This document shows, one piece after another, positions 51,501 through 64,000 of a DNA stretch of 64,000 nucleotides. The notes under the pieces were generated by a model. It ran no database searches. It saw only the letters and a list, made by a program, of their open reading frames with translations, and was not told the origin of the DNA. Position 1 is the first letter of the stretch; each line of letters opens with the position of its first letter. This DNA comes from Variovorax sp. OV700 (GTDB lineage: Bacteria > Pseudomonadota > Gammaproteobacteria > Burkholderiales > Burkholderiaceae_C): assembly GCF_900099805.1 (NCBI RefSeq), contig NZ_FNDR01000005.1, forward strand, positions 434,001 through 498,000, in the 5' to 3' direction. A program made the position numbers and the translations under genes.

Positions 51501-51640
51501 ACCGTCACGGTCGGCAGGTCGATGTCCGGAAAGTTCTGCACCTTCATCGCGTTGAACGACAGCAGCCCACCGAAGGTGAGCAGCACGAACAGCATCACCG
51601 CCGGAATCGGGTTGCGGATGGACCATGCGGAAACATTCAT
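48530..51640 (-). CDS. RND-family efflux pump, inner-membrane transporter
   Basis: The 1036-residue HAE1-type pump has the classic double layout: helix 1 at about 10-30, a large periplasmic loop, helices at about 335-560, a second loop, then six helices to the C-terminus. The proton-relay aspartates sit in VVGILVDDAIVEVENIVRH, and FPDIDLPTVTVSAALPGA is the porter-domain start. Substrate unknown. The start overlaps the adaptor stop by 4 bp. Confidence 0.93.
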   Translation of the reverse strand: MNVSAWSIRNPIPAVMLFVLLTFGGLLSFNAMKVQNFPDIDLPTVTVSAALPGAAPSQLETDVARKLENSIATVQGLKHITTKVQDGAATLIVEFRLEKPVQEAVDDVRSAVQRVRADLPADVRDPVVTKLDFAAQPVLAFTIASARMDIEALSWYVDNDITKKLLALPGVGAVNRVGGVTRQVHVDLDPAKLQALGASAADISRQLRQVQTESAGGRIDLGGSEQPVRTMATVQSADQLADMQIALSDGRRVRLDQVARISDTIAEPRAAALLNGKPVVGFEVARSRGASEVEVGRAIQKALADLRVQRPDIELTEAFNFVDPVEEEYDGSLHLLYEGAILAVIVVWLFLRDWRATFVSAVALPMSVIPAFIGMHLLGFSVNVISLLALSLVVGILVDDAIVEVENIVRHLRMGKSPYEAAMEAADEIGLAVIATTFTLIAVFLPTAFMSGVAGKFFKQFGWTASLAVFASLVVARVLTPMMAAYILKPVVGAEKEPRWLTAYMRAVEWSTHHRFKTMVLATLFFFGSLAMIPLLKTGFIPPDDNSQTQIYLSLAPGSTLAQTTAAAEETRRRVMQIKHVKSVYTTVAGGSAGGDPFANFGTPETRKATLTIKLDERGDRPRKQVIENQIRTALETLPGVRSTVGLGGSGEKYILALTGEDPAALASAASAVEKDLRTVPGLGNITSTASLVRPEIAVRPDFARAADLGVTSSAIAETLRVATLGDYDQALAKLNLAQRQVPIVVKLEDSARQNLDLLGRLSVPGARGPVMLSQVASLTMEGGPAVIDRYDRSRNVNFEIELSGVGLGDAKTAVTALPSIQKLPPGVRVTEVGDAEVMTELFASFGLAMLTGVLCIYIVLVLLFKDFLHPVTILCALPLALGGAFVGLLIGQKALSMPSLIGLIMLMGVATKNSILLVEYAIVARRDHGMTRWEALRDACHKRARPIIMTTLAMGAGMLPIAVGLGAADSSFRSPMAMAVIGGLITSTVLSLLVVPAVFTYVDDIEHWIRRTVRKVRGQPADPHIDDDLVERTAG

Positions 51641-52869
51641 GGACGTACCTTCGTTTCGTTCGCGCCCTGCCTGCCCGCGGCGGCCGAGGCGGCCGATGCA
51701 GCGGGCTGGGCACCTGCGGTTGCCGGCGCGGGCGCCGCCACCACGCGCACCAGGTCGCCGTCATTCAGGAAGCCGGCCCCTTGCACCACGATCTGCGCGC
51801 CTTCGGGCAGCGCGCTGGTGATCTCGACGCGCTCACCGACGCGGCGGCCGGTCTGCACCTTGAGCTGCGCCACGCGGTTGTCGGGCAGCAGCATGAAGAC
51901 GTTGTTGAAGCCGTCGCGCGGAACGATGGAGGTCTGCGGCACGGTGGGCGCCGAGCTGCGGCCGAGCTCGAAGTCGCCGCGCGCGAACATGCCGGCCTTG
52001 ATGCCGGTGTTCTGCTGCACGTTCGGCAGGTCGACGTAGACCAGCGCCGCGCGCGTTTGCGGATCGACCGTGGGCGCGATGCTGCGCACCTTGCCGCGCA
52101 CCTGCGCGCCGCTGGCGCTGACCACGAAGGCCGTGGTGCCCACCGCGATGCGGCTGAGCTCGGCCGAGGTGACCTCGGCGCGCCATTCGAGTCGGCCTTG
52201 GCGGATTAGCCGGAACAGCTCGGTGCCGGAGGCCACCACGCTGCCGACCGTGGCGGTGCGCGATGAGATCACGCCGTCGTCGGGGGCCAGCACCTGCGTG
52301 TTGCGCCCGCGAACCTGCTGCGCGGTAAGCACGGCTTCGGCGGCCTCGACGCGTGCCTTGGCGGTCTGCTCGGCGGTCTGGTACTGGTTGATCTGCTGCT
52401 GGCTCAGCGCGCCGGTGGCCTGCAGCGTGCGGGCGCGCGCCGCGTTGCCGGCTGCGTCGGCGGCGGTGGCCCTGGCTTCGGCGAGCGAGGCACGCGATTG
52501 CGCGATGTCTGCTTGCACGGTCTCGGGCGAGAAGACGGCGAGCACCTGACCCTTCTTGACCACGTCGCCCACGTTCACGCGCACTTCAGCGAGCCGGAGC
52601 CCGGTGGACTCGGAGCCCACGATGGCCTCCTGCCAGGCGGCCACGTTGCCGTTGGCCGCAAGGGTCTGCGTGAGCTCGGTGAGTTCGGGCTTGGCGACCG
52701 TGACCGTCAACGTCGGCCGAGCAGCCGGGGCACCCGCCTTGTCCTTGGCGACCGCCGCCGGGGTGCCGGGCTCGCTCGCTGGCTTGCGTGTCAGCCACAC
52801 GACCGCCGCAACGACGATGACGAGCGCCAGCAGCGCGATGGCGAGGGTGGAGCGTTTGATACTTTTCAT
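51637..52869 (-). CDS. RND periplasmic adaptor (membrane fusion protein)
   Basis: The 410-residue HlyD/AcrA-type protein has an N-terminal membrane anchor (about 8-26), split lipoyl halves (SESTGLRLAEVRVNVGDVVKKG and QVLAPDDGVISSRTATVGSVV), a helical hairpin between them (about 115-185), a beta-barrel domain, and an Ala/Pro-rich tail. There is no lipobox. I chose the ATG at 52869, which overlaps the outer membrane factor stop. Confidence 0.92.
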   Translation of the reverse strand: MKSIKRSTLAIALLALVIVVAAVVWLTRKPASEPGTPAAVAKDKAGAPAARPTLTVTVAKPELTELTQTLAANGNVAAWQEAIVGSESTGLRLAEVRVNVGDVVKKGQVLAVFSPETVQADIAQSRASLAEARATAADAAGNAARARTLQATGALSQQQINQYQTAEQTAKARVEAAEAVLTAQQVRGRNTQVLAPDDGVISSRTATVGSVVASGTELFRLIRQGRLEWRAEVTSAELSRIAVGTTAFVVSASGAQVRGKVRSIAPTVDPQTRAALVYVDLPNVQQNTGIKAGMFARGDFELGRSSAPTVPQTSIVPRDGFNNVFMLLPDNRVAQLKVQTGRRVGERVEITSALPEGAQIVVQGAGFLNDGDLVRVVAAPAPATAGAQPAASAASAAAGRQGANETKVRP

Positions 52870-54359
52870 GGCGACGTCGCGACCTTGGCGGCCGGGTTGG
52901 AAGTCATCGAGGGCGATCCGGGGCGGGCCCAGCCACCGCCCATCGAGCGGTAGAGCGCAACCCAGGCTTGGGCCCGTTCGCGCTGCAGCGAGACGCGCGC
53001 GGTTTGCGCGGCAAAGAGGGTGCGGCGCGAATCCTCGAGTTCGAACAGGCTGGCCAATCCGCTCTGGTAGCGGGCCTGTGTGGCGTCGAAGGAAGCCTGA
53101 TAGTTCTTCACAGCGGAATCGGCGTCGGTGGCGCGCGCATCGGTGGCGTCGAGATTGACCAGTGCTTCTTCGACCTCGCGCACCGCTTGTCGCACGTTCG
53201 CGCGGTAGAGCGACACGGCTTCGGTGTAGCGCGCCTTGGCCGCATCGCTGTTGGCCGCGCGTGCGCCGCCGTCGAGCAGCGGGACGGTGAGCGACACCGG
53301 GCCAATCGACCAGGTGTCGAGCGACGCCCGAAAGCCGCTGGTGCGGATCTGCATGCGGCCGATGGAGCCCGAGATGCTGAGCTTGGGATAGCGCTCGGCT
53401 TCGGCGGAGCCCACGTCCGCGCTGGCCGATGCCACGCCGAGTTCGGTCGCATACACGTCGGGCCGCTGCGAGATGGCTTCGGCCGGCACGCTGGCGATGC
53501 TGCCCACCACCGGCAGCGCACGCTGCGCGGGGGAGGCGGCCAGCTTCTGTTCGAGCGTGGGCTCGTCGATGCCGCTGAGCGCCACCAGCGCCTTGCGCTG
53601 CACCGCGCACTGGGCGCGCTGCTGCGTGAGGCGGCCCGAGGCGTCCGAGGCGCTGGCGCGCGCCAGCGCGGCGTCGGCCGGGGCAGTGAAACCGGCGCGC
53701 GCCGACAGGTCCGTGAGGCGCGCGGTTTCGCCGCGCGATTTCGCATCCGATTCGGCCACGCGCAGCTGCTGCTGGCAGGCGCGTTCAGCGAAGTACGCAT
53801 TGGCCGTTTCGGCCGCGACGGCCACGCGCGCGTCATGCCATTTGGCGGTGGCGCTGCTGAGCTTCTGCTCGGCCGAATCGCGGTCGGAGCGCAGGCGGCC
53901 GAACAGGTCGATCTCCCATCTGGATTGCAAGCCGGCCTGCAGCGTGGTCACCGGCGCGATGGCCGCGCTGGCGCTGGTGGACGAGGAGGCCGTCGTGCCG
54001 CCTGAGCCGAAGGAAGAGCCCGAGACACCGCGGCTGGCCGACAGCGTGCCATCCAGGTTGGGCAGCAGCGCCGCGCCGGCCTGCACGCGCGTGGAGCGCG
54101 CCTCGGCCACGCGCGCAGCGGCGCTCGCGAGGTTGGGGCTTGCGGTTTCGGCCGCAGCAATCAGTTCGACCAGCAGCGGGTCGTCGAGCTGGCGCCACCA
54201 GTCGGCCAGCGAAGCCACCGAGCCGCCGTGGGGCAGCGGCGCATGCCACTGCGCGGGGAACGGCGCCTCCACCGTGGCCGGCGGGCGCGTCAGGCCGCAG
54301 CCGGCCAGGCCCACACCGAGCGGCAGGCACACGGCGGCAATCCATCGAAGTCGTCTCAT
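52866..54359 (-). CDS. RND outer membrane factor (NodT/OprM-type lipoprotein)
   Basis: The 497-residue TolC-like lipoprotein has a lipobox GLAGC (mature Cys21). Two outer-membrane-efflux repeats are visible, with RWEIDLFGRLRSDRDSAEQ in the first and VPLLDGGARAANSDAAKARY in the second. It completes the tripartite pump. It overlaps both the TetR stop and the adaptor start by 4 bp. Confidence 0.92.
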   Translation of the reverse strand: MRRLRWIAAVCLPLGVGLAGCGLTRPPATVEAPFPAQWHAPLPHGGSVASLADWWRQLDDPLLVELIAAAETASPNLASAAARVAEARSTRVQAGAALLPNLDGTLSASRGVSGSSFGSGGTTASSSTSASAAIAPVTTLQAGLQSRWEIDLFGRLRSDRDSAEQKLSSATAKWHDARVAVAAETANAYFAERACQQQLRVAESDAKSRGETARLTDLSARAGFTAPADAALARASASDASGRLTQQRAQCAVQRKALVALSGIDEPTLEQKLAASPAQRALPVVGSIASVPAEAISQRPDVYATELGVASASADVGSAEAERYPKLSISGSIGRMQIRTSGFRASLDTWSIGPVSLTVPLLDGGARAANSDAAKARYTEAVSLYRANVRQAVREVEEALVNLDATDARATDADSAVKNYQASFDATQARYQSGLASLFELEDSRRTLFAAQTARVSLQRERAQAWVALYRSMGGGWARPGSPSMTSNPAAKVATSP

Positions 54360-55081
54360 GTCTTCTTTCTCCCGGAACGGGCAGCAGGTACGGCCGTGGG
54401 CTTGGCAATCGCTTTGCGGCGCAGGACTTCCGCCTCGACCAGCGCAACGGCATAGCCCGTGAGGCGTTGCGCCCATGCGTCCACATTTTTCGGAGTGTTC
54501 AGCAGTGAAGGGCGTATGGCGTCGACCAGATCCTGGCTCACGAAAAGCTGCACCGCGAGCCCGGTGATGGCGAAGGTCAGGCGGTGCACGTCGTCGTCGG
54601 GCCGCGCAAGACCCAGGCGGCGGCACAGCACGCCGGCAATCGCAATGTGTGGCGCCTTGATGTCGCGCTCGAATTCCTTGGCCCACTGGCTGGTGGGCTC
54701 GAGCATCTCACGCATGTGCAGCTGGATGCATTGCCGAACGATCTCGCCCTGCTTGAGCGGCTCGACCATGCGGGTGAAGAAGATGCGCAGTGCTTCTTCC
54801 ATCGGCAGATCGGGCGCGTCGTACAGCGAAACGAAATCTCCGGCATTGCCGCCCATCGGTTCGCCGAAGGTGGCGGCATACAAACCGGCCTTGTCGCCGA
54901 AGTAGTAGCTGATGGCCGAGATGTTGACGTCCGCCGCGCGCGCGATCTCGCGGGTCGAGGTCTTGGCGTAGCCGTTGGCCGCAAAGAGGGCCAGGGCGGC
55001 GTAGAGAAGGCGCTGGCGCGCTTCGACGCCGTCGCTGCGCGGCGCGCGGGCGGAAATGGCTTGCAGGGCAGGAGCGCTCAT
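54356..55081 (-). CDS. TetR-family regulator (CecR/DUF1956-like)
   Basis: The 241-residue regulator has an N-terminal helix-turn-helix (LALFAANGYAKTSTREIARA and ISYYFGDKAGLY) and a DUF1956/TetR_C_15-type ligand domain (FFTRMVEPLKQGEIVRQ). It is the first gene of the pump operon and overlaps the next gene by 4 bp, so repressor and pump are made from one message and autoregulation is likely. I chose the ATG at 55081; the TTG at 55111 is less likely. Confidence 0.88.
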   Translation of the reverse strand: MSAPALQAISARAPRSDGVEARQRLLYAALALFAANGYAKTSTREIARAADVNISAISYYFGDKAGLYAATFGEPMGGNAGDFVSLYDAPDLPMEEALRIFFTRMVEPLKQGEIVRQCIQLHMREMLEPTSQWAKEFERDIKAPHIAIAGVLCRRLGLARPDDDVHRLTFAITGLAVQLFVSQDLVDAIRPSLLNTPKNVDAWAQRLTGYAVALVEAEVLRRKAIAKPTAVPAARSGRKKT

Positions 55082-55161
55082 GCCGGCGATTAGACCATTG
55101 TGGGCAATCAAACGATTGATTTACTTATGCCAGCATGAGGGCTTTCTTCTGACTGTCCGGC

Positions 55162-55197: not shown

Positions 55198-56781
55198 ATG
55201 CTCGATTGGCAGGCGATTGATGCGCGCTACGATCCGCCCATGTCTGCTGTTCCGCCCGTTTCCGCACCGCCCGCTTTGCCAACTCTGCCTCTGGATGCCG
55301 ACGGCATCCTCGCGCTGGCGGCGCGATCGATGTTCCATCTGTTCTCTAGCATCAGCCAAGGCATGTTCCTGGTCGACCGCAGCGGGCGCATCGTGTGGGT
55401 CAACGAAGGTTACCGGCGCTTCCTGCCGGCGCTGGGCTTCTCGTCGATAGATGAGTTCATGGGCCACATGGTCGAGGACGTCATTCCCAACACGCAGATG
55501 CGGCGCGTGCTCGAAACCGGCGAGCCGATCCTCGTCGACCTGCTCACCAACAAGGCGGGTACTTTCGTTGTCAGCCGCATTCCGCTGCGTGCCGAAAGCG
55601 ATGGGCGCGAGGGCAGGGCGGGAGAGGTCATCGGCGCCATCGGCATCGTGCTGTTCGACCAGCCCGAAACCACGCTGCAGCCGCTCATCAGCAAGTTCGC
55701 TCTGCTGCAGCGCGACCTGGACGACGCACGGCGCGAGCTGGCGAGCCAGCGCAACAACCCGCTGTACCAGCACGCGGCCGACGGGCAGCGCCGCTCCAAG
55801 TACACCTTTGCCAGCTTCATCGGCAGCAGCCCCGCGGCGGTGGAGGTGAAGCGCCATGCGCGCCGCGCCGCACAGTCCACGAGCCCGGTGCTGCTGCTCG
55901 GCGAAACGGGCACCGGCAAGGAGCTGCTCGCGCATGCGATCCACGCATCGTCGGCGCGAGCCAAGGGGCAGTTCGTCAGCGTCAACATCGCGGCCGTGCC
56001 CGACACGCTGCTGGAGGCCGAATTCTTCGGTTTCGCGCCTGGAGCCTTCACGGGCGCCGATCGCCGCGGCCGCGAAGGCAAATTCAAGCTGGCCGACGGC
56101 GGCAGTCTTTTTCTCGACGAGATCGGCGACATGCCGCTCGGCCTGCAGGCCAAGCTGCTGCGAGCGCTGCAGGAAGGCGAGATCGAACCGCTCGGCTCCA
56201 ACAAGCTGGTGCCCTTCGATGCGCGCGTGATTGCCGCCACGTCGCGCGACCTGCCCGAGCTGGTGCGCCGCGGCCAATTCCGCGAAGACCTGTACTACCG
56301 CCTCAACGTGCTGCCGCTGCGCGTGCCGCCGCTGCGCGAGCGCCGCAGCGACATTCCGGCGCTGGTCGAGGCATTGGGCGAAGACATGGCGCTGCGCAGC
56401 GGCGAGGCGCCGCCCGAACTCACGCCCGATGCGCTGGCGCTCTTGGCCGGCCAGCACTGGCGTGGCAACATCCGCGAGCTGCGCAACGTGCTGGAGCAAG
56501 TGACCATGCGCAGCGACTCGCAGCGCATCGATGCGGCGCAGCTCGAACGCATCCTGCGCGAAGCGGGGCTGGATCAGATCGCGCCGCCCGATGTCCTGCA
56601 CTCGTCGGGCGACGAAGAGGCGGCGCTGCTGCGGCCGCTGGCGCAACAGGTTGCGGAACTGGAACAGAAAGCCATTGCCGCTGCGCTCGCGAGCACAGGC
56701 GGCAACAAGCTCGCGACCTCGCGGCTGCTCGGCATTTCACGCGCGACGCTGTATGAACGGATGACGAATCCGGTTCGCTGA
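55198..56781 (+). CDS. Sigma-54-dependent transcriptional activator with PAS domain
   Basis: The 527-residue enhancer-binding protein has a PAS sensor at about 45-155 (GMFLVDRSGRIVWVNEGYRR), an AAA+ domain at about 205-430, and a C-terminal Fis-type helix-turn-helix (about 490-527, SRLLGISRATLYERM). The AAA+ part has Walker A GETGTGKE (235-242), the sigma-54 contact loop GAFTGA (282-287) and Walker B SLFLDEIGD. The ATG at 55198 has AAAGG seven bases upstream; an ATG at 55240 lacks a ribosome site. It probably activates the downstream depolymerase/ABC operon through the palindrome and -24/-12 promoter found there. Confidence 0.92.
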   Translation: MLDWQAIDARYDPPMSAVPPVSAPPALPTLPLDADGILALAARSMFHLFSSISQGMFLVDRSGRIVWVNEGYRRFLPALGFSSIDEFMGHMVEDVIPNTQMRRVLETGEPILVDLLTNKAGTFVVSRIPLRAESDGREGRAGEVIGAIGIVLFDQPETTLQPLISKFALLQRDLDDARRELASQRNNPLYQHAADGQRRSKYTFASFIGSSPAAVEVKRHARRAAQSTSPVLLLGETGTGKELLAHAIHASSARAKGQFVSVNIAAVPDTLLEAEFFGFAPGAFTGADRRGREGKFKLADGGSLFLDEIGDMPLGLQAKLLRALQEGEIEPLGSNKLVPFDARVIAATSRDLPELVRRGQFREDLYYRLNVLPLRVPPLRERRSDIPALVEALGEDMALRSGEAPPELTPDALALLAGQHWRGNIRELRNVLEQVTMRSDSQRIDAAQLERILREAGLDQIAPPDVLHSSGDEEAALLRPLAQQVAELEQKAIAAALASTGGNKLATSRLLGISRATLYERMTNPVR

Positions 56782-56833
56782 AGCACTCGAATGATGGTGC
56801 GAGAGGGGGGCCGCCGGCGCAATGGCGGCAGCC

Positions 56834-56858
56834 AAAAAAAGACCCGCCGAAGCGGGTC
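56834..56858 (-). terminator. Terminator-like hairpin reading on the minus strand
   Basis: GACCCGC-CGAA-GCGGGTC (56841-56858) is preceded on the plus strand by seven A residues (56834-56840), so on the minus strand the stem is followed by TTTTTTT. No annotated minus-strand gene lies upstream of it. The rest of the 415-bp gap 56782-57196 holds the palindrome and promoter listed below. Confidence 0.6.
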
Positions 56859-57055
56859 AGGGGCAGCCCCCGCGTCGGAGGGAGGAGGGAGAGGTAGCCA
56901 GGGGTGCCAAGTGCCAATGTAGGCAGGAATCTGGGAGAAATATGGGTGCCGTACCGTCGTCCTGTTTCCTGTCGCTCGTAGTCCGAAAATTGGCTGAACA
57001 GTGGCGGCGATCTGCGAGTGAATCTTCTCGAAAACCCTGACTGACAAAAATACAA

Positions 57056-57074
57056 ATGCCTGAATATCAGGCAT
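57056..57074. promoter_or_regulatory. 19-bp palindrome, candidate enhancer site for the sigma-54 activator
   Basis: ATGCCTGA-ATA-TCAGGCAT has perfect 8-bp arms. Its centre lies about 110 bp upstream of the start expected from the -24/-12 promoter, the usual distance for an enhancer bound by a Fis-type activator. A weaker related sequence, CCTAAACCAGG, lies about 15 bp downstream. Confidence 0.65.
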
Positions 57075-57149
57075 CGAGAGTGTTCCTAAACCAGGCGAAA
57101 TCGGTTCTTCTCCAATGAAGAATCCTTTGTTATCAATGGTTTGGGCGTG

Positions 57150-57165
57150 TGGCACGAACTGTGCA
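57150..57165 (+). promoter_or_regulatory. Sigma-54 (-24/-12) promoter of the depolymerase/ABC operon
   Basis: TGGCACGAACTGTGCA matches the consensus TGGCACG-N4-TTGCA at all but one position, with the GG and GC doublets at the required spacing. Transcription should start near 57176. An AAGGAG ribosome site (57184-57189) and the ATG of the binding protein (57197) follow. The sigma-54 activator gene lies directly upstream. Confidence 0.85.
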
Positions 57166-57196
57166 ATATTCAGTCACCTATTTAAGGAGACAAAGA

Positions 57197-58384
57197 ATGA
57201 ACCGTCGCCACCTCGTCGCCCTGGCCGCACTTGCCACCTGCGCCGCCGCAGCCCCTGCTTGGGCCCAGTCCAACGAAATCCGCATCGCGCACATCTACAG
57301 CAAGACCGGTCCGCTCGAGGCCTATGGCAAGCAGACGCAGACCGGCTTCACGATGGGCCTGGATTACGCCACCGGCGGCACGATGACGGTCAACGGCAAG
57401 AAGCTGGTGGTCATCGAGAAGGACGACCAGGGCAAGCCCGACCTTGGCAAGTCGCTGCTGGCGGCCGCGTATTCCGACGACAAGGCCGCGCTGGCGGTGG
57501 GCCCCACGGCTTCTGGCGTGGCGCTGGCCATGCTGCCGGTGGCCGAGGAGTACAAGAAGATTCTGATCGTCGAGCCGGCGGTTGCCGATTCGATCACCGG
57601 GGACAAGTGGAACAAATACATCTTCCGCACCGGTCGCAATTCGAGCCAGGACGCCATCTCCAACGCGGTGGCCATCGACAAGGCCGGCGTGACCGTGGCC
57701 ACGCTTGCGCAGGACAACGCCTTCGGCCGCGACGGCGTGAAGGCCTTCGGCGCCGCGCTCAAGAAGGCGAAGCTGGTGCACGAGGAATACCTGCCACCCG
57801 CCACCACCGACTTCACGGCCGGCGCGCAGCGCCTGATCGACAAGCTCAAGGACCAGCCGGGCCGCAAGATCATCTGGATCGTCTGGGCTGGCGCGGGCAA
57901 TCCGTTCAAGATCGTCGACCTGGACCTGAAGCGCTACAACATCGAGATCGCGACGGGCGGCAACATCCTGCCGGCCATGGCGGCCTACAAGAACCTGCCG
58001 GGCATGGAAGGGGCGGCGTACTACTATTTCGGCATCCCGAAGAATCCCGTGAACGAAGCCCTCGTCGCGGCGCACTACAAGGAATACAAGACGCCGCCGG
58101 ACTTCTTCACAGCCGGCGGTTTCTCGGCCGCGATGGCGGTGGTCACCGCGCTCAAGAAGACGGGCGGCGACACCAGCACCAACAAGCTCATCAGCGCCAT
58201 GGAAGGCATGAGCTTCGACACGCCCAAGGGCAAGATGACCTTCCGCAAGGAAGACCACCAGGCGATGCAGTCGATGTACCACTTCAAGATCAAGAACGAT
58301 CCCGCCTTTGCATGGGGCGTGCCGGAGCTGGTGCGCGAGATCAAGCCCGAAGAGATGGACATCCCGATCAAGAACAAGCGCTGA
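57197..58384 (+). CDS. ABC transporter periplasmic binding protein (LivK-like)
   Basis: The 395-residue Leu/Ile/Val-binding-type receptor (Peripla_BP_6) has a signal peptide (about 1-24, ending PAWAQ). Recognisable segments are IRIAHIYSKTGPLEAYGKQT and LVVIEKDDQGKPDLG. The family binds amino acids, amides, urea, aromatic acids and other compounds, so ligand cannot be named from sequence. It is the first gene after the sigma-54 promoter. The depolymerase follows after 168 bp, and the matching ATPases and permeases follow that. Confidence 0.9.
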   Translation: MNRRHLVALAALATCAAAAPAWAQSNEIRIAHIYSKTGPLEAYGKQTQTGFTMGLDYATGGTMTVNGKKLVVIEKDDQGKPDLGKSLLAAAYSDDKAALAVGPTASGVALAMLPVAEEYKKILIVEPAVADSITGDKWNKYIFRTGRNSSQDAISNAVAIDKAGVTVATLAQDNAFGRDGVKAFGAALKKAKLVHEEYLPPATTDFTAGAQRLIDKLKDQPGRKIIWIVWAGAGNPFKIVDLDLKRYNIEIATGGNILPAMAAYKNLPGMEGAAYYYFGIPKNPVNEALVAAHYKEYKTPPDFFTAGGFSAAMAVVTALKKTGGDTSTNKLISAMEGMSFDTPKGKMTFRKEDHQAMQSMYHFKIKNDPAFAWGVPELVREIKPEEMDIPIKNKR

Positions 58385-58552: not shown

Positions 58553-60010
58553 ATGGCAGCGATGCGATGGAACTGGAAGGGACTGGCCGCGGCTGCGGCG
58601 ATGGCGGTTGGTGCGCACGCCGGAACGGCGACGGCGGCGGTGCCGCTGCCGTCTCTCGGCGCAAACCCAGCGGAGGTGAGCGTGTCCGGCCTCTCGGCCG
58701 GCGGCTTCATGGCCGTGCAATTGCACGTGGCCTATTCGGCCACCTTCAAGCGCGGTGCCGGCGTAGTGGCCGGCGGGCCGTACTACTGCGCAGAGGGCTC
58801 GGTGGTCAATGCCACCGGCCGCTGCATGGCGCACAGCACCAGCATTCCGGTGTCGACGCTCGTTAGCACCACCAACAGCTGGGCCGCCAGCGGCGCTATC
58901 GATCCGGTGTCGAACATGACGGGCTCCAAGCTGTACCTGTTTTCCGGCACCTCGGACAACACCGTCAAGCAGGCGGTGATGGACGACCTGAAGACCTACT
59001 ACCAGAGCTTCGTGCCCGCGGCCAACACGGTCTACAAGAACAACATCGGGGCCGGCCACGCGATGGTCACCGACGACTTCGGCGCCGCTTGCAGCACCAC
59101 CGCTGCGCCCTATATCAACAACTGCGGCTTCGACCTCGCGGGCGAAATTCTTCAGCAGCTCTACGGGCCCTTGAACCCTCGCAACAACGGCACGCTGGGC
59201 GGCACGTTCACGGAGTTCAACCAATCGGAGTTCATCACCGGCCACGGGGTGGCAGCCACCGGCTGGATCTACGTGCCGCAGGCCTGCACCACGGCATCTT
59301 GCCGCGTGCATCTGGTGTTGCACGGCTGCAAGCAGAACTACACCGACGTGAGCGACCAGTACGTGCGCAAGACCGGCTACAACCGCTGGGCCGACACCAA
59401 CAACATCGTGCTGATCTATCCGCAGACCAGCACGGCGGCCACCAACAGCTGCTGGGACTGGTGGGGCTACGACAACGCGAACTATGCGAAGAAGTCGGGC
59501 CCGCAGATGGCGGCGCTCAAGGCCATGGTCGATCGCGTGACCGGCTCCGGCGGCGGCTCGGCACTGCCGGCACCCACCGGCGTGGGCACATCCGGCGCAA
59601 CCAGCAGCAGCATGGTGATCGGATGGAACGGCGTCTCCGGCGCCGGCGGCTACAACGTCTATCGCGGCGGCAGCCAGGTCAACGCCGCGCCGGTGGCCGG
59701 CACCAACTACACCGACAGCGGACTGGCCGCGTCGACCACCTACAGCTGGACCGTGGCGGCATTGGACGCCAGCAACGCGCAGGGCGCGATGTCGGCCGCG
59801 GCCACGGGCACCACGCTTGCCGGAAGCAGTGGAGGTGGCACCTGCTACACCGCCAGCAACTACGCGCACACCGTGGCCGGGCGCGCCTATGCGCTGTGGG
59901 GCCTCACTTATGCCTACGGCTCCGGGCAATCGATGGGGCTGTGGAACATCTACGTCACCACCACGCTGAAGCAGACCGGCCCGAACTACTACGTGATCGG
60001 CAGCTGTTGA
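58553..60010 (+). CDS. Extracellular poly(3-hydroxybutyrate)-type depolymerase, multidomain
   Basis: Secreted polyester hydrolase, 485 residues. Signal peptide about 1-28. The catalytic domain (about 30-330) is the circularly permuted type 2: lipase box GLSAG (Ser48), then Asp135 (GTSDN), His169 (GAGHAM), and only afterwards the oxyanion-hole histidine His257 in VHLVLHGCK. A fibronectin type III linker (about 338-425) and a C-terminal substrate-binding domain (about 432-485, CYTASNYAHTVAGRAYALWG, ending in Cys) follow. This layout matches extracellular PHB depolymerases. Residue pairing is by eye. The ATG at 58553 has AAGGAGA upstream. It lies inside an ABC transporter operon, which is unusual. 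Confidence 0.88.
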   Translation: MAAMRWNWKGLAAAAAMAVGAHAGTATAAVPLPSLGANPAEVSVSGLSAGGFMAVQLHVAYSATFKRGAGVVAGGPYYCAEGSVVNATGRCMAHSTSIPVSTLVSTTNSWAASGAIDPVSNMTGSKLYLFSGTSDNTVKQAVMDDLKTYYQSFVPAANTVYKNNIGAGHAMVTDDFGAACSTTAAPYINNCGFDLAGEILQQLYGPLNPRNNGTLGGTFTEFNQSEFITGHGVAATGWIYVPQACTTASCRVHLVLHGCKQNYTDVSDQYVRKTGYNRWADTNNIVLIYPQTSTAATNSCWDWWGYDNANYAKKSGPQMAALKAMVDRVTGSGGGSALPAPTGVGTSGATSSSMVIGWNGVSGAGGYNVYRGGSQVNAAPVAGTNYTDSGLAASTTYSWTVAALDASNAQGAMSAAATGTTLAGSSGGGTCYTASNYAHTVAGRAYALWGLTYAYGSGQSMGLWNIYVTTTLKQTGPNYYVIGSC

Positions 60011-60049: not shown

Positions 60050-60817
60050 ATGCTTGAGACGAAAGACCTGACCATCCGCTTCGGCGGGCACGTGGCCGTC
60101 AACAGCGTGAGCTGCGCCTTCGCGCCGGGCACGCTGACAGCCATCGTCGGCCCCAACGGTGCGGGCAAGACCACGTACTTCAACCTGATCTCGGGTCAGC
60201 TCAAGGCGAGCGCGGGCACGGTGTCGCTCGATGGGCATCCGCTGTCGGGCCTGTCGCCTTCAGCGCGCACGCATGCGGGGCTGGGGCGGGCCTTTCAGCT
60301 CACGAACCTGTTTCCCAACCTCACGGTGCTGGAGAACGTGCGCCTTGCGGTGCAGGCCACGCGCGAAGGCGCGCACCGCTGCGGACTCAACCTGTGGAGC
60401 ATCTGGAGCGACCACAAGGCGCTGACCGAGCGCGCCGACCAGATCCTGGCCGACGTGGCGCTGAAGTCGCGCGAACATGCGACCGTGGCCAGCCTGCCGC
60501 ACGGCGACCAGCGCAAGCTGGAGGTGGCGCTCCTGATGGCGCTCGAGCCCAAGGTCTTCATGTTCGACGAACCGACGGCCGGCATGAATGCCGCCGAGGC
60601 ACCCGTCATCCTCGACCTGATCCGCAAGCTGAAGCAGGACAAGACCAAGACCATTCTCTTGGTCGAACACAAGATGGACGTGGTGCGCGAACTCGCGGAC
60701 CGCATCATCGTGCTGCACAACGGCACGCTCGTGGCCGATGGCGAACCGGCCGAGGTGATTGCCTCGCCGGTGGTGCAGGAGGCGTACCTCGGCATCGCGA
60801 AGGAGGCCGCTGCATGA
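60050..60817 (+). CDS. ABC transporter ATPase, LivG-type
   Basis: The 255-residue ATPase has Walker A GPNGAGKTTYFN, a Q-loop in GRAFQLTNLFPNLTV, a signature region LPHGDQRKLEVALLM (variant of LSYGxQR), Walker B FMFDEPTAGM and the H-loop LVEHKMDVV. The BCA_ABC_TP C-terminal segment is present. It pairs with the LivF-type ATPase below. 39 bp separate it from the depolymerase gene. Confidence 0.92.
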   Translation: MLETKDLTIRFGGHVAVNSVSCAFAPGTLTAIVGPNGAGKTTYFNLISGQLKASAGTVSLDGHPLSGLSPSARTHAGLGRAFQLTNLFPNLTVLENVRLAVQATREGAHRCGLNLWSIWSDHKALTERADQILADVALKSREHATVASLPHGDQRKLEVALLMALEPKVFMFDEPTAGMNAAEAPVILDLIRKLKQDKTKTILLVEHKMDVVRELADRIIVLHNGTLVADGEPAEVIASPVVQEAYLGIAKEAAA

Positions 60818-60830
60818 CGCGCCCGATGAA

Positions 60831-60949
60831 TTTCTCCCTCCCCCTCCGGGGGAGGGCAGGGGTGGGGGCAAGCGGCCTTCACACCGCCGCGGCCCTTCAA
60901 GCGCCGCCTGCCCCCATCCCAGCCTTCCCCCGGAAGGGGAAGGAGCAAG
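60831..60949. repeat. 119-bp intergenic repeat, copy 1
   Basis: First of two copies in this operon, beginning 13 bp after the livG-type stop. Its 5' part (CTCCCTCCCCCTCCGGGGGA) is a small hairpin, and GGGGTGGGGGC pairs with GCCCCCATCCC near the 3' end, so the whole element folds as an imperfect palindrome. Copies 1 and 2 align over 119 positions with 18 mismatches and no gaps by hand. The 3' end, GGAAGGAGCAAG, places AAGGAG eight bases before the next ATG. Confidence 0.9.
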
Positions 60950-60953
60950 ACCG

Positions 60954-61682
60954 ATGACACACCAGAACCTGCTGACCCTCGAAGGCGTGCATACGCACAT
61001 CGGGGCGTACCACATCCTCCATGGCGTCGACCTCGCGGTGCCCAAAGGCCAGCTCACCATGCTGCTGGGCCGCAACGGCGCGGGCAAGACGACCACGCTT
61101 CGAACCATCATGGGCCTGTGGCATGCGTCGGAGGGCCGGGTGCGCTTCGGCGATAAAGACATCGCCGCCATGCACACGCCGCAGATCGCGGGGCTTGGCA
61201 TTGCCTACGTGCCCGAGAACATGGGCATCTTCTCCGACCTCACTGTGAAGGAGAACATGCTGCTCGCCGCGCGCGGTGCCAAGAATGCCGCGCAGATCGA
61301 CGACACGCGATTGAAGTGGATCTTCACGCTATTCCCCGCGGTCGAGAAGTTCTGGAACCATCCGGCCGGCAAGCTCTCGGGCGGCCAGAAGCAAATGCTC
61401 GCGGTGTCGCGCGCCATCGTCGAGCCGCGCGAGCTGCTGCTGATCGACGAGCCCAGCAAGGGCCTCGCGCCCGTGATGATCAACAACATGATCGATGCGT
61501 TTGGCGAGCTCAAGCGCAGCGGCGTGACGATCCTGCTGGTGGAACAGAACATCAACTTCGCCCAGCGCCTGGGCGACAACGTCGCGGTGATGGACAACGG
61601 CCGCGTGGTGCACAGCGGCAGCATGGCGGCGTTCTCCGCGGATGCGCAATTGCAGCAATCGCTGCTTGGACTGGCCCTATGA
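60954..61682 (+). CDS. ABC transporter ATPase, LivF-type
   Basis: The 242-residue ATPase has Walker A GRNGAGKTTTLRT, a Q-loop region YVPENMGIFSDLTV, the signature LSGGQKQMLAVSRAI, Walker B LLIDEPSKGLAP and the H-loop VEQNINFA. I chose the ATG at 60954; frames that extend upstream run through repeat copy 1. Its ribosome site is supplied by the end of the repeat. Confidence 0.93.
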   Translation: MTHQNLLTLEGVHTHIGAYHILHGVDLAVPKGQLTMLLGRNGAGKTTTLRTIMGLWHASEGRVRFGDKDIAAMHTPQIAGLGIAYVPENMGIFSDLTVKENMLLAARGAKNAAQIDDTRLKWIFTLFPAVEKFWNHPAGKLSGGQKQMLAVSRAIVEPRELLLIDEPSKGLAPVMINNMIDAFGELKRSGVTILLVEQNINFAQRLGDNVAVMDNGRVVHSGSMAAFSADAQLQQSLLGLAL

Positions 61683-61695
61683 AGTATTCGACGTT

Positions 61696-61814
61696 TTTCT
61701 CCCTCCCCCTTTGGGGGAGGGTTGGGGTGGGGGCTCGCGGCCTTCGATACAGCGCGGCCTTGCAAGTGCCGTCAGCCCCCATCCCAGCCTTCCCCCGGAG
61801 GGGGAAGGAGCAAG
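61696..61814. repeat. 119-bp intergenic repeat, copy 2
   Basis: Second copy, about 85% identical to the one at 60831-60949, in the same orientation and again beginning 13 bp after a stop codon. It ends GGGGGAAGGAGCAAG. Here the next ATG (61834) is 19 bp on and uses its own GGGAG site. Confidence 0.9.
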
Positions 61815-61833
61815 AGAAGAAGGGAGCGCAGCA

Positions 61834-62817
61834 ATGAAGGCGCTCGACTTCGACTGGAAGCCGCTGCTTCTCGCACCCATCCTCGCACTGGTCGCGCTGC
61901 CACTTACGGGTTCCTTCTCGACCTGGCTCACGCTCACAGTGGCGGGCCTGGCGATGGGCATGATCATCTTCATCATCGCGTCGGGCCTCACACTGGTGTT
62001 CGGCCTCATGGATGTCCTGAACTTCGGCCACGGCGTGTTCATTGCGCTCGGCGCCTTCGTGGCCAGCAGCGTGCTCGGCCTGATGGGCGACTGGACGGGT
62101 TCGGGCGAGCTGTGGCGCAACCTCGTCGCCGTATTCCCGGCGATGCTGGTGGCCATGGCGGTGGCCGGTACGGTCGGCCTCGCGTTCGAGCGCTTCATCG
62201 TAAGGCCGGTGTATGGCCAGCATCTGAAGCAGATCCTCATCACCATGGGCGGCATGATCATCGGCGAAGAGCTCATCAAGGTGATCTGGGGGCCAGCCCA
62301 GGTGCCGCTGCCGCTGCCCGAAGCCTTGCGCGGCTCGCTGCTGATCGGCGATGCGGCCATCAGCAAGTACCGCCTGCTTGCTGTGGCGGTGGGCATCGCG
62401 GTGTTCGGCCTGCTCGCATGGACGCTGAGTCGCACCAAGATCGGCCTCCTGATCCGCGCCGGCGTGCAGGACCGCGAGATGGTCGAGTCGCTCGGCTACC
62501 GCATCGGCCGGCTGTTCGTCGGTGTGTTCGTGGTGGGCAGTGCGCTGGCCGGCCTGGGCGGCGTGATGTGGGGCCTGTTCCAGCAGAACCTGGTGCCGCA
62601 GATGGGCGCGCAGGTCAACGTGCTGATCTTCATCGTGATCATCATCGGCGGGCTCGGCTCGACGGGCGGGGCACTGATCGGTGCACTGCTGGTTGGGCTC
62701 ATGACCAATTACATCGGCTTCTTGCTGCCCACGCTCACGCAGTTCGCGAGCATCCTGCTGATGGTGGCCGTGCTGCTGTGGCGTCCGCAGGGCGTGTACC
62801 CGGTTGCCAACCGCTGA
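61834..62817 (+). CDS. ABC transporter permease, LivH-type
   Basis: The 327-residue inner-membrane permease has about eight helices. The family motif GLTLVFGLMDVLNFGHGVFIA-like segment begins near residue 52. The cytoplasmic loop RAGVQDREMVESLGYRIGRL contacts the ATPases. The 3' end reads RPQGVYPVANR. Partner of the following LivM-type permease, 16 bp downstream. Confidence 0.93.
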   Translation: MKALDFDWKPLLLAPILALVALPLTGSFSTWLTLTVAGLAMGMIIFIIASGLTLVFGLMDVLNFGHGVFIALGAFVASSVLGLMGDWTGSGELWRNLVAVFPAMLVAMAVAGTVGLAFERFIVRPVYGQHLKQILITMGGMIIGEELIKVIWGPAQVPLPLPEALRGSLLIGDAAISKYRLLAVAVGIAVFGLLAWTLSRTKIGLLIRAGVQDREMVESLGYRIGRLFVGVFVVGSALAGLGGVMWGLFQQNLVPQMGAQVNVLIFIVIIIGGLGSTGGALIGALLVGLMTNYIGFLLPTLTQFASILLMVAVLLWRPQGVYPVANR

Positions 62818-62833: not shown

Positions 62834-63901
62834 ATGTTCCTGAAACGACTTCTCTCCAACGACACGCCGAGGAGCCGCCTGCTGGCGCTGCTGCTGGTGG
62901 CGCTGTTCATCGCGCTGGCGTTCGCGCCTTTCATCTTCCCGGGCGTGAAGGCGCTCAGTGTCGCGGCCAAGATCCTGGTGTTCGTGGTGCTGGTCGCGAG
63001 CTTCGACCTGCTGCTGGGCTACACCGGCATCGTGAGCTTCGCGCACACCATGTTCTTCGGCATCGGGGCCTATGGCATCGCCATCTCGGCTTCGCGGATC
63101 GGTCCCAGCTGGGGCGCGGTGCTGCTGGGGCTCGCGGCATCGCTCGCGATCTCGCTGGTGCTCTCGTTCGCCATCGGTCTGTTTTCGCTCAGGGTGCGTG
63201 CGATCTTCTTCGCGATGATCACGCTGGCGGTGGCTTCGGCGTTTCAGACGCTGGCTTCGCAGCTGTCGGATTTCACGGGCGGCGAAGACGGGCTCACCTT
63301 CAAGCTGCCCGAACTGATTTCGCCGAGCTTCGAGTTCTCCGAAGAACCTTTCCTCGGTGTCTCGCTCGATGGCCGCCTGCTGTGCTACTACATGCTCTTC
63401 GTGGCGGCGGTGGTGTTGGTGCTCGCGCTGCTGCGTATCGTGAATTCGCCCTTCGGCCGCGTGCTGCAGGCGATCCGCGAGAACGAGTTCCGCGCCGAGG
63501 CCATCGGCTACCGCGTGGTGGTGTACCGCACCACGGCGGCCGTGCTGTCGGCCCTGTTCGCCACGCTGGCCGGCGCGATGCTCGCCATATGGCTGCGCTA
63601 CAACGGGCCCGACACGTCGCTGAGCTTCGAGATCATGATCGACGTGCTGCTGATCGTGGTGATCGGCGGCATGGGCACCATCTACGGCGCGGCCATCGGC
63701 GCGGTGCTGTTCGTGCTGGCGCAAAGCTATTTGCAAGATCTGCTGCGCGTGGGCAGCGAGGCCGCGAGCGGGTTGCCGTGGCTTGCGGCGCTGCTGTCGC
63801 CCGACCGGTGGCTGCTGTGGTTGGGGGTGCTGTTCGTGCTCTCGGTCTATTATTTTCCGACGGGCATCGTCGGCAAGCTGAGGGCGAGGGCTGCACGATG
63901 A
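62834..63901 (+). CDS. ABC transporter permease, LivM-type
   Basis: The 355-residue permease has about nine to ten helices. Typical segments: DLLLGYTGIVSFAHTMFFGI near residue 60-80 and the coupling loop RVLQAIRENEFRAEAIGYRV. The TIYGAAIGAVLFVL helix follows the GGMG turn. The stop overlaps the start of the hydrolase gene (ATGA), so the hydrolase is part of the operon. Confidence 0.93.
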   Translation: MFLKRLLSNDTPRSRLLALLLVALFIALAFAPFIFPGVKALSVAAKILVFVVLVASFDLLLGYTGIVSFAHTMFFGIGAYGIAISASRIGPSWGAVLLGLAASLAISLVLSFAIGLFSLRVRAIFFAMITLAVASAFQTLASQLSDFTGGEDGLTFKLPELISPSFEFSEEPFLGVSLDGRLLCYYMLFVAAVVLVLALLRIVNSPFGRVLQAIRENEFRAEAIGYRVVVYRTTAAVLSALFATLAGAMLAIWLRYNGPDTSLSFEIMIDVLLIVVIGGMGTIYGAAIGAVLFVLAQSYLQDLLRVGSEAASGLPWLAALLSPDRWLLWLGVLFVLSVYYFPTGIVGKLRARAAR

Positions 63902-64000
63902 GCAACGATCTTCCCGTTCCGGTGTCCCGCTATGCCCAGCTTGCTGGCCGCGAAATCCATTGGCTCGACTGGGGTGCGCCCGATGCACCGGTGATCATCG
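63898..64000 (+). CDS. Alpha/beta hydrolase, N-terminal fragment (runs off the window)
   Basis: Only 34 residues are visible. GREIHWLDWGAPDAPVII is the usual first beta-strands of a soluble alpha/beta hydrolase, before the HG oxyanion motif. There is no signal peptide, so it should be cytoplasmic. The ATGA overlap with the permease gene ties it to the depolymerase/ABC operon. It could hydrolyse imported oligomers. The catalytic motifs are outside the window. Confidence 0.72.
   Translation, partial: MSNDLPVPVSRYAQLAGREIHWLDWGAPDAPVII

Follow-up and report, generated by a model that had tools for sequence, protein, structure and literature searches.

A predicted sigma-54 control region with an array of palindromes in front of a polyhydroxybutyrate depolymerase and importer operon in Variovorax sp. 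OV700

In a stretch of 64,000 nucleotides from the genome of Variovorax sp. OV700 (the window), positions 57037-57165 are probably (at a rough probability of 0.7) a control region at which an HbcR-like activator and sigma-54 switch on both the hydrolysis of polyhydroxybutyrate (PHB) and the uptake of hydroxybutyrate. Comparison with the corresponding loci of relatives reveals the architecture of this region, its conservation and its attachment to the operon that follows. The separate parts are known, and it is their combination, an HbcR-like activator and a multi-site enhancer in front of an operon for a PHB depolymerase and a HAAT-type importer, that is probably new. Its closest named relatives put the organism in the Comamonadaceae. 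The features on which the argument depends are the following, numbered from the first letter of the window:

55240-56781, plus strand: gene for a sigma-54 activator with PAS, AAA+ (with GAFTGA) and HTH_8 domains, by Pfam
57037-57055, no strand: putative distal enhancer copy CTGACTGACAAAAATACAA, 3 of 12 constrained positions differing, abutting the palindrome at 57056-57074
57056-57074, no strand: putative main enhancer palindrome ATGCCTGAATATCAGGCAT, from pattern scans and the upstream regions of relatives
57080-57098, no strand: candidate third enhancer position, at chance level in this genome with 6 of 12 positions differing
57150-57165, plus strand: predicted sigma-54 promoter TGGCACGAACTGTGCA, with transcription expected to start near 57176; conservation of 1.82 bits per column in the genus set of 58 regions
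57197-58384, plus strand: HAAT-type periplasmic substrate-binding protein (Pfam Peripla_BP_6, 178.7 bits)
58553-60010, plus strand: predicted secreted type-2 short-chain-length PHA (PHB) depolymerase (NCBIfam NF050059, 397.2 bits, cut-off 280)
60050-60817, plus strand: LivG-like ABC ATPase, from profile matches
60954-61682, plus strand: LivF-like ABC ATPase, from profile matches, ATG chosen by eye
61834-62817, plus strand: LivH-like permease, from profile matches, ATG chosen by eye
62834-63901, plus strand: LivM-like permease, from profile matches, ATG chosen by eye
63898-64000, plus strand: start of an alpha/beta hydrolase gene that overlaps the livM stop and continues past the window (L269:9899-10786)

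The order and common strand of the operon genes suggest that they are co-transcribed. They encode a complete importer of the HAAT class (branched-chain amino acid/amide/urea), with a Peripla_BP_6 protein, two ABC ATPases and two BPD_transp_2 permeases. It differs from known members of this class in that all five subunits fall below the curated cut-offs of the leucine and urea transporter models (LivKHMGF, Urt), the binding protein far below, and in that its predicted substrate is a hydroxy acid. The best solved relatives of the binding protein, 3n0x and 3nnd, carry no ligand in their names. The depolymerase resembles the type-2 extracellular scl-PHA depolymerases, since it scores above the cut-off of NF050059, has the PHB depolymerase 2d80/2d81 as its nearest solved relative in the PDB (E 5.6e-65), and carries the lipase-box serine in a GLSAGG that aligns with GLSSGG of 2d80. 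Unlike these enzymes it is encoded among transporter genes in an operon with a sigma-54-type promoter, and it carries an extra fibronectin-like stretch. Its family name and, by eye, its N-terminus indicate that it is probably secreted. The alpha/beta hydrolase, homologues of which are also found behind livM in loci L009, L010, L011, and L012, is perhaps an intracellular (cytoplasmic) esterase for oligomers. No 3-hydroxybutyrate dehydrogenase was found among the operon genes profiled. Two copies of a 127-bp direct repeat, 83% identical to each other and containing inverted repeats, lie in the livG-livF (60824-60950) and livF-livH (61689-61815) intervals. Elsewhere in the window, a gene for a TetR regulator with a CecR-type C-terminal domain (54356-55111, minus strand; Pfam) adjoins genes that by eye look like those for an efflux adaptor and an outer-membrane channel (51637-54686, minus strand).

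A close copy of the depolymerase is found in 35 of the 61 genomes of the genus and none in the remaining 26. In 34 of these 35 it immediately follows the binding-protein gene, and in the 35th it is split on another contig. When a sample of 150 genomes from the family was searched, 31 had a depolymerase match and 24 of these also the activator; the two are at most 5 kb apart in 17 of the 24 (two of the 24 and two of the 17 belong to the same genus). The importer is present without the depolymerase in L008 and in L009-L013, which include Ramlibacter and Curvibacter, and the 19.5-kb Delftia locus (L007) yielded no importer of this kind. Because L009-L013 keep the importer without it, the depolymerase is an optional but position-stable member of the operon. 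The same loci had suggested a recent insertion of the depolymerase in the genus, a reading abandoned in view of its distribution in the family sample. In genome G052 the depolymerase (G052:C9:347516-348967) is 91% and the activator 84% identical to those of the window, a hint that the depolymerase gene may have been transferred between lineages.

As the earlier sequence-only reading had stated, a sigma-54 activator gene stands directly before the palindrome, its PAS, AAA+ and Fis-type HTH domains being recognized by Pfam (Sigma54_activat 219.6 bits, HTH_8 45.1, PAS_4 25.5). Pfam and alignment together show the GAFTGA loop and the Fis-type HTH by which it is classed as a bEBP. In a midpoint-rooted tree of 42 activators it belongs to a clade of 22 with 100/100 support, which also holds five Pseudomonas and Paraburkholderia proteins (L014-L018) together with L019 and L020; the sister relation of the window activator group to L014-L018 has 86/71 support. 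Downstream of the L015 activator gene lie genes for a putative permease, a 3-hydroxybutyrate dehydrogenase and an acetoacetate-CoA ligase. The membrane protein of this locus gave no hit to NCBIfam at E<=1e-40 and none to Pfam, and by eye it looks like a GntP-type permease. The gene layout is presumably that of HbcR, and from the neighbours of L015 we take L014-L018 as a whole to be of the HbcR type. The best match to the L015 activator in the OV700 genome is the window activator (407 vs 249.5 bits), and the L015 permease has no match in this genome at E<=1e-40. The enhancer motif was not found before the Pseudomonas permease gene; half-sites resembling GTCTC-N6-GAGAC are seen there by eye.

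HbcR (PA2005), the regulator of (R)-3-hydroxybutyrate catabolism in Pseudomonas, resembles the window activator in its PAS-AAA+-HTH_8 architecture and in the hydroxybutyrate signal predicted for the latter, and may also share its clade, in so far as L014-L018 stand for the HbcR type in a tree that does not include PA2005. The two differ in their surroundings, as HbcR-type activators are found beside a putative permease, a dehydrogenase and a CoA ligase, whereas the window activator is found beside a HAAT importer and a depolymerase. They also differ in a diverged HTH domain, which in the window activator is 32-34% identical to those of L014 and L015. Its PAS domain is 38-47% identical to those of L014, L015, L019, and L020 (67% and 52% to those of the nearer L009 and L013), and 24-30% identical to those of four relatives outside the clade. 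Since the AAA+ domain shows the same trend, with 58-66% identity inside the clade and 42-52% outside, the PAS similarity partly reflects general kinship. Within the clade, the L019 locus contains a TRAP transporter together with a gene resembling CoA-transferases that scores below the cut-off of its model. In Devosia (L020) a 3-hydroxybutyrate dehydrogenase and then a HAAT-type importer follow the related activator; this importer is distant from that of the window (ATPases 39-40%, permeases 26-36% identical), and the window binding protein gave no match to the Devosia one at E 1e-15. Taken together, the neighbours within the clade, the Devosia pairing, the likeness of the PAS domains, and the reported activation of HbcR by R-3-hydroxybutyrate (PMC10482368) argue for the sensing and uptake of hydroxybutyrate, and (R)-3-hydroxybutyrate or a close derivative is the most likely ligand of the PAS domain of the window activator.

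A less likely alternative is that the pairing of enhancer and promoter is right but that the importer carries some other compound (an amino acid, an aromatic or another short acid), the depolymerase being a frequent companion that acts on another ester. HAAT importers as a class carry many substrates. Here the binding protein scores far under the cut-offs of the leucine and urea models and has solved relatives whose names are silent on the ligand, and the importer is found without the depolymerase both in L008-L013 and in many genomes of the genus; against this stands the stable position of the depolymerase where it does occur. The Devosia importer is only distantly related, yet in Devosia a HAAT-type importer is joined to a 3-hydroxybutyrate dehydrogenase behind a related activator, and the window activator is itself kin to activators found beside 3-hydroxybutyrate genes. 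The reading with hydroxybutyrate as signal and substrate is weakened, and that with another substrate strengthened, by the distance of the Devosia importer, by the share of general kinship in the PAS similarity, and by a prediction from two residues that the PAS domain of PA2005 binds an autoinducer-like compound, in a publication where the role of PA2005 is listed as 3-hydroxybutyrate catabolism (PMC8694187). The most complete form of the hydroxybutyrate reading, a self-contained sigma-54-gated operon for external PHB with its own sensor, multi-site enhancer, depolymerase, HAAT importer specific for 3-hydroxybutyrate or its oligomers, and cytoplasmic oligomer esterase, is therefore offered tentatively, with the odds slightly against it. 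To our knowledge 3-hydroxybutyrate or its oligomers are a substrate not usually given to the HAAT class.

When it comes to the control region itself, 57056-57074 reads ATGCCTGA-ATA-TCAGGCAT with both 8-bp arms perfect, and its centre precedes the start predicted near 57176 by 111 bp; a perfect 19-bp palindrome about 110 bp upstream of the start had been claimed, and both statements are borne out. The promoter had been described as one mismatch away from the sigma-54 consensus. Compared with TGGCACN5TTGCW, TGGCACGAACTGTGCA does have one mismatch and an intact GG-N10-GC core; the deviation is no flaw, as GTGCA is the common form in relatives (GTGC is found in the promoter of 57 of 58 genus and 22 of 31 other regions). 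Across the -12 element and the predicted start, GTGCAATATTCAGTCACC (57161-57178) is strongly conserved in the genus set and not in other genera, and the TCAGTCA within it resembles a half-site of the enhancer palindrome.

The promoter string was considered as significant by itself and rejected as such, since it occurs at chance level both in the window (34 matches to TGGCACN5TTGCW at up to two mismatches, 39 expected) and in the genome (59 exact matches to TGGCACN6TGCW, 50 for the control); the string alone proves nothing. The exact palindrome occurs once in the 6,483,567-base (6.48-Mb) genome. Allowing up to three mismatches gives 21 places, compared with six for a reversed control pattern; in the window alone there is one such match against 0.26 expected, and at least one match was seen in 23 of 100 shuffles. 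The broader TGYCTGAN3TCAGRCA at up to two mismatches finds 40 palindrome-like places, compared with 27 for the control. A genome scan for further targets had been proposed. When the positions of the 59 promoter strings were compared with those of the 40 palindrome-like places, only the pair 57056-57074 and 57150-57165 lay within 2 kb of each other, which makes the combination unusual, and no second enhancer-promoter pair was found at the thresholds used. In addition, 300 bp upstream of 30 of the 59 promoter strings held no palindrome partner, and 350 bp on each side of the three other one-mismatch palindromes in the genome held no promoter partner. A larger regulon was rejected on finding this single pair, in a scan that targets with degenerate sites or poorer promoters would escape.

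The conservation of these elements was followed in 89 upstream regions. The genus set consists of 58 regions upstream of orthologous binding-protein genes, i.e. 57 orthologues and a second copy (L205), leaving out L166 (contig end) and G007 (partial gene). The other set consists of 31 loci from other genera, leaving out five (L117, L125, L142, L143, and Delftia L007) in which no binding-protein gene was found. The patterns TGGCAYN6TGCW and TGYCTGAN3TCAGRCA were widened after the relatives had been seen, and as the related sequences are not independent, the comparison with shuffles shows that the elements are present and not how many times they arose. With at most one mismatch, the promoter core is found in 58/58 genus and 31/31 other regions (2.5% and 2.0% in shuffles). 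A palindrome with at most two mismatches lies 50-180 bp upstream of the core in 44/58 and 23/31 regions (shuffles 0.10% and 0.06%); it is absent from 14 genus and eight other regions, numbers that fall to two and three (L012, L013, and L122) at up to three mismatches. Upstream of eight remoter binding-protein copies, with 53-56% identity, there is neither promoter core nor palindrome.

Of the 58 genus genomes with the activator, 57 carry its gene and the binding-protein gene on the same strand and no more than 10 kb apart, and in the remaining one the two are on different contigs. The distance exceeds 1 kb in 18 of the 57, and 17 of these 18 are in the footprint set (G007 is not); in all 17 the promoter core stays before the binding-protein gene. 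This supports the view that the control elements belong to the binding-protein gene and are paired with the neighbouring activator, and the pairing of activator and operon is well supported by its conservation. In one genome, G020, a second, diverged set is found (G020:C2:202433-206970), where an activator gene on the opposite strand, the binding-protein gene L205 and a depolymerase gene adjoin; upstream of L205 the palindrome is missing and the sigma-54-like string is a different one. In the family sample, 71 of 150 genomes had no activator match at the threshold.

The predicted enhancer is an array of palindromes with more than one site. When pair spacings of 10-59 bp were scanned, 19, 24, and 43 bp were prominent in both region sets, which places the sites 19 and 24 bp apart, about 111, 92, and 68 bp before the -24 element. 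A 19+24 bp array of 19-bp palindromes, accepted at up to 12 of 36 mismatches with one base of slack, is present in 55/58 genus and 25/31 other regions and in none of the shuffles (0/580 and 0/310, i.e. 0/890), where the best triples average 19.5 of 36 mismatches, about 6.5 per site. The distal position (57037-57055 in the window) has a genus mean of 2.66 mismatches of 12. For the third position the mean is 4.69 in the genus and 2.81 in other genera, in several of which it is good, so that the array in the genus is mainly a pair of sites; some regions from other genera (L132, L131) have two or three near-perfect copies. In the window the middle copy is perfect and the best one, the distal copy is degenerate, and the third is at chance level. 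The regulator-target pairing that the sequence-only reading drew from the geometry is thus supported by comparative footprinting, whereas its single palindrome was not the whole enhancer: the abutting degenerate copy at 57037-57055 and the weak one at 57080-57098 had been missed. The array test was used because column conservation anchored at the promoter missed the palindromes, which score 0.34-0.43 bits there, no better than the 0.43-bit spacer; this is ascribed to their distance varying by 1-3 bp.

By eye the consensus of the array palindromes is TTGTCTGA-N3-TCAGACAA. The sites of NtrC and NifA are likewise palindromic, often several, and lie about 100 bp before a -24/-12 promoter; the window differs from these in its motif and in the 19+24 bp array. 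Among the 61 genus genomes the exact TGYCTGAN3TCAGRCA occurs at nine places (none for the control), six at the operon locus, i.e. in only six of the 61 genomes, and three in a repeat of one genome. This repeat (G027:C7:27414-28211; L293, L297, L298) lies on a different contig from the operon and packs three identical palindromes, TGTCTGACCGTCAGACA, each with the same flanking sequence, into 800 bp.

It is very improbable that the palindrome serves as an RNA hairpin or transcription terminator and not as a site for the activator. Its minus-strand reading (57075-57055) does match a terminator pattern, T-rich tail included, a terminator-like hairpin pointing rightward is found nearby at 57103-57124, and three terminator-like sites were counted against 0.8 in shuffles. 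A hairpin would, however, hardly account for a unit that recurs at 19 and 24 bp spacing within a narrow range of distances from the promoter, many copies being imperfect palindromes. Behind the activator gene there are terminator-like hairpins at 56841-56858 (minus) and 57103-57124 (plus), and the latter, located between enhancer and promoter, may end the activator transcript. Still less credible is a chance -24/-12 match with the operon read from another promoter, since the chance frequency of the string in the genome is set against a core that is nearly invariant in the 58 and 31 regions and 56700-57300 was found to hold no sigma-70-like site.

In the preferred reading, that of a sigma-54 switch for PHB hydrolysis and hydroxybutyrate uptake, (R)-3-hydroxybutyrate or a close derivative would be sensed by the PAS domain of the activator. 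Activator dimers would bind the array of 19-bp palindromes, some 68-112 bp before the -24 element, and assemble there, and the activator would then use ATP to open the sigma-54 RNA polymerase waiting at TGGCACGAACTGTGCA. With the operon switched on, the secreted depolymerase would hydrolyse PHB, the HAAT-type ABC importer would take up the released hydroxybutyrate units, and the intracellular esterase would perhaps cleave oligomers. Activator binding, sigma-54 dependence, the ligand, the transported substrate, and the role of the hydrolase are all predictions from sequence comparison.

A literature search found no report of the operon or its regulation, a weak indication given its thin coverage of subscription journals. 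In the main text of a review of PHA degradation in soil the words 'transporter' and 'sigma' are absent, and Variovorax is listed there as metabolizing low-molecular-weight degradation products (PMC13372988). If the proposed reading is true, it would give a testable account of how the degradation of polyhydroxybutyrate, a natural as well as a commercial polyester, and the import of its products are switched on. It would also propose a substrate for a class of importers usually named after branched-chain amino acids, and provide a binding motif that marks such operons in many genomes.
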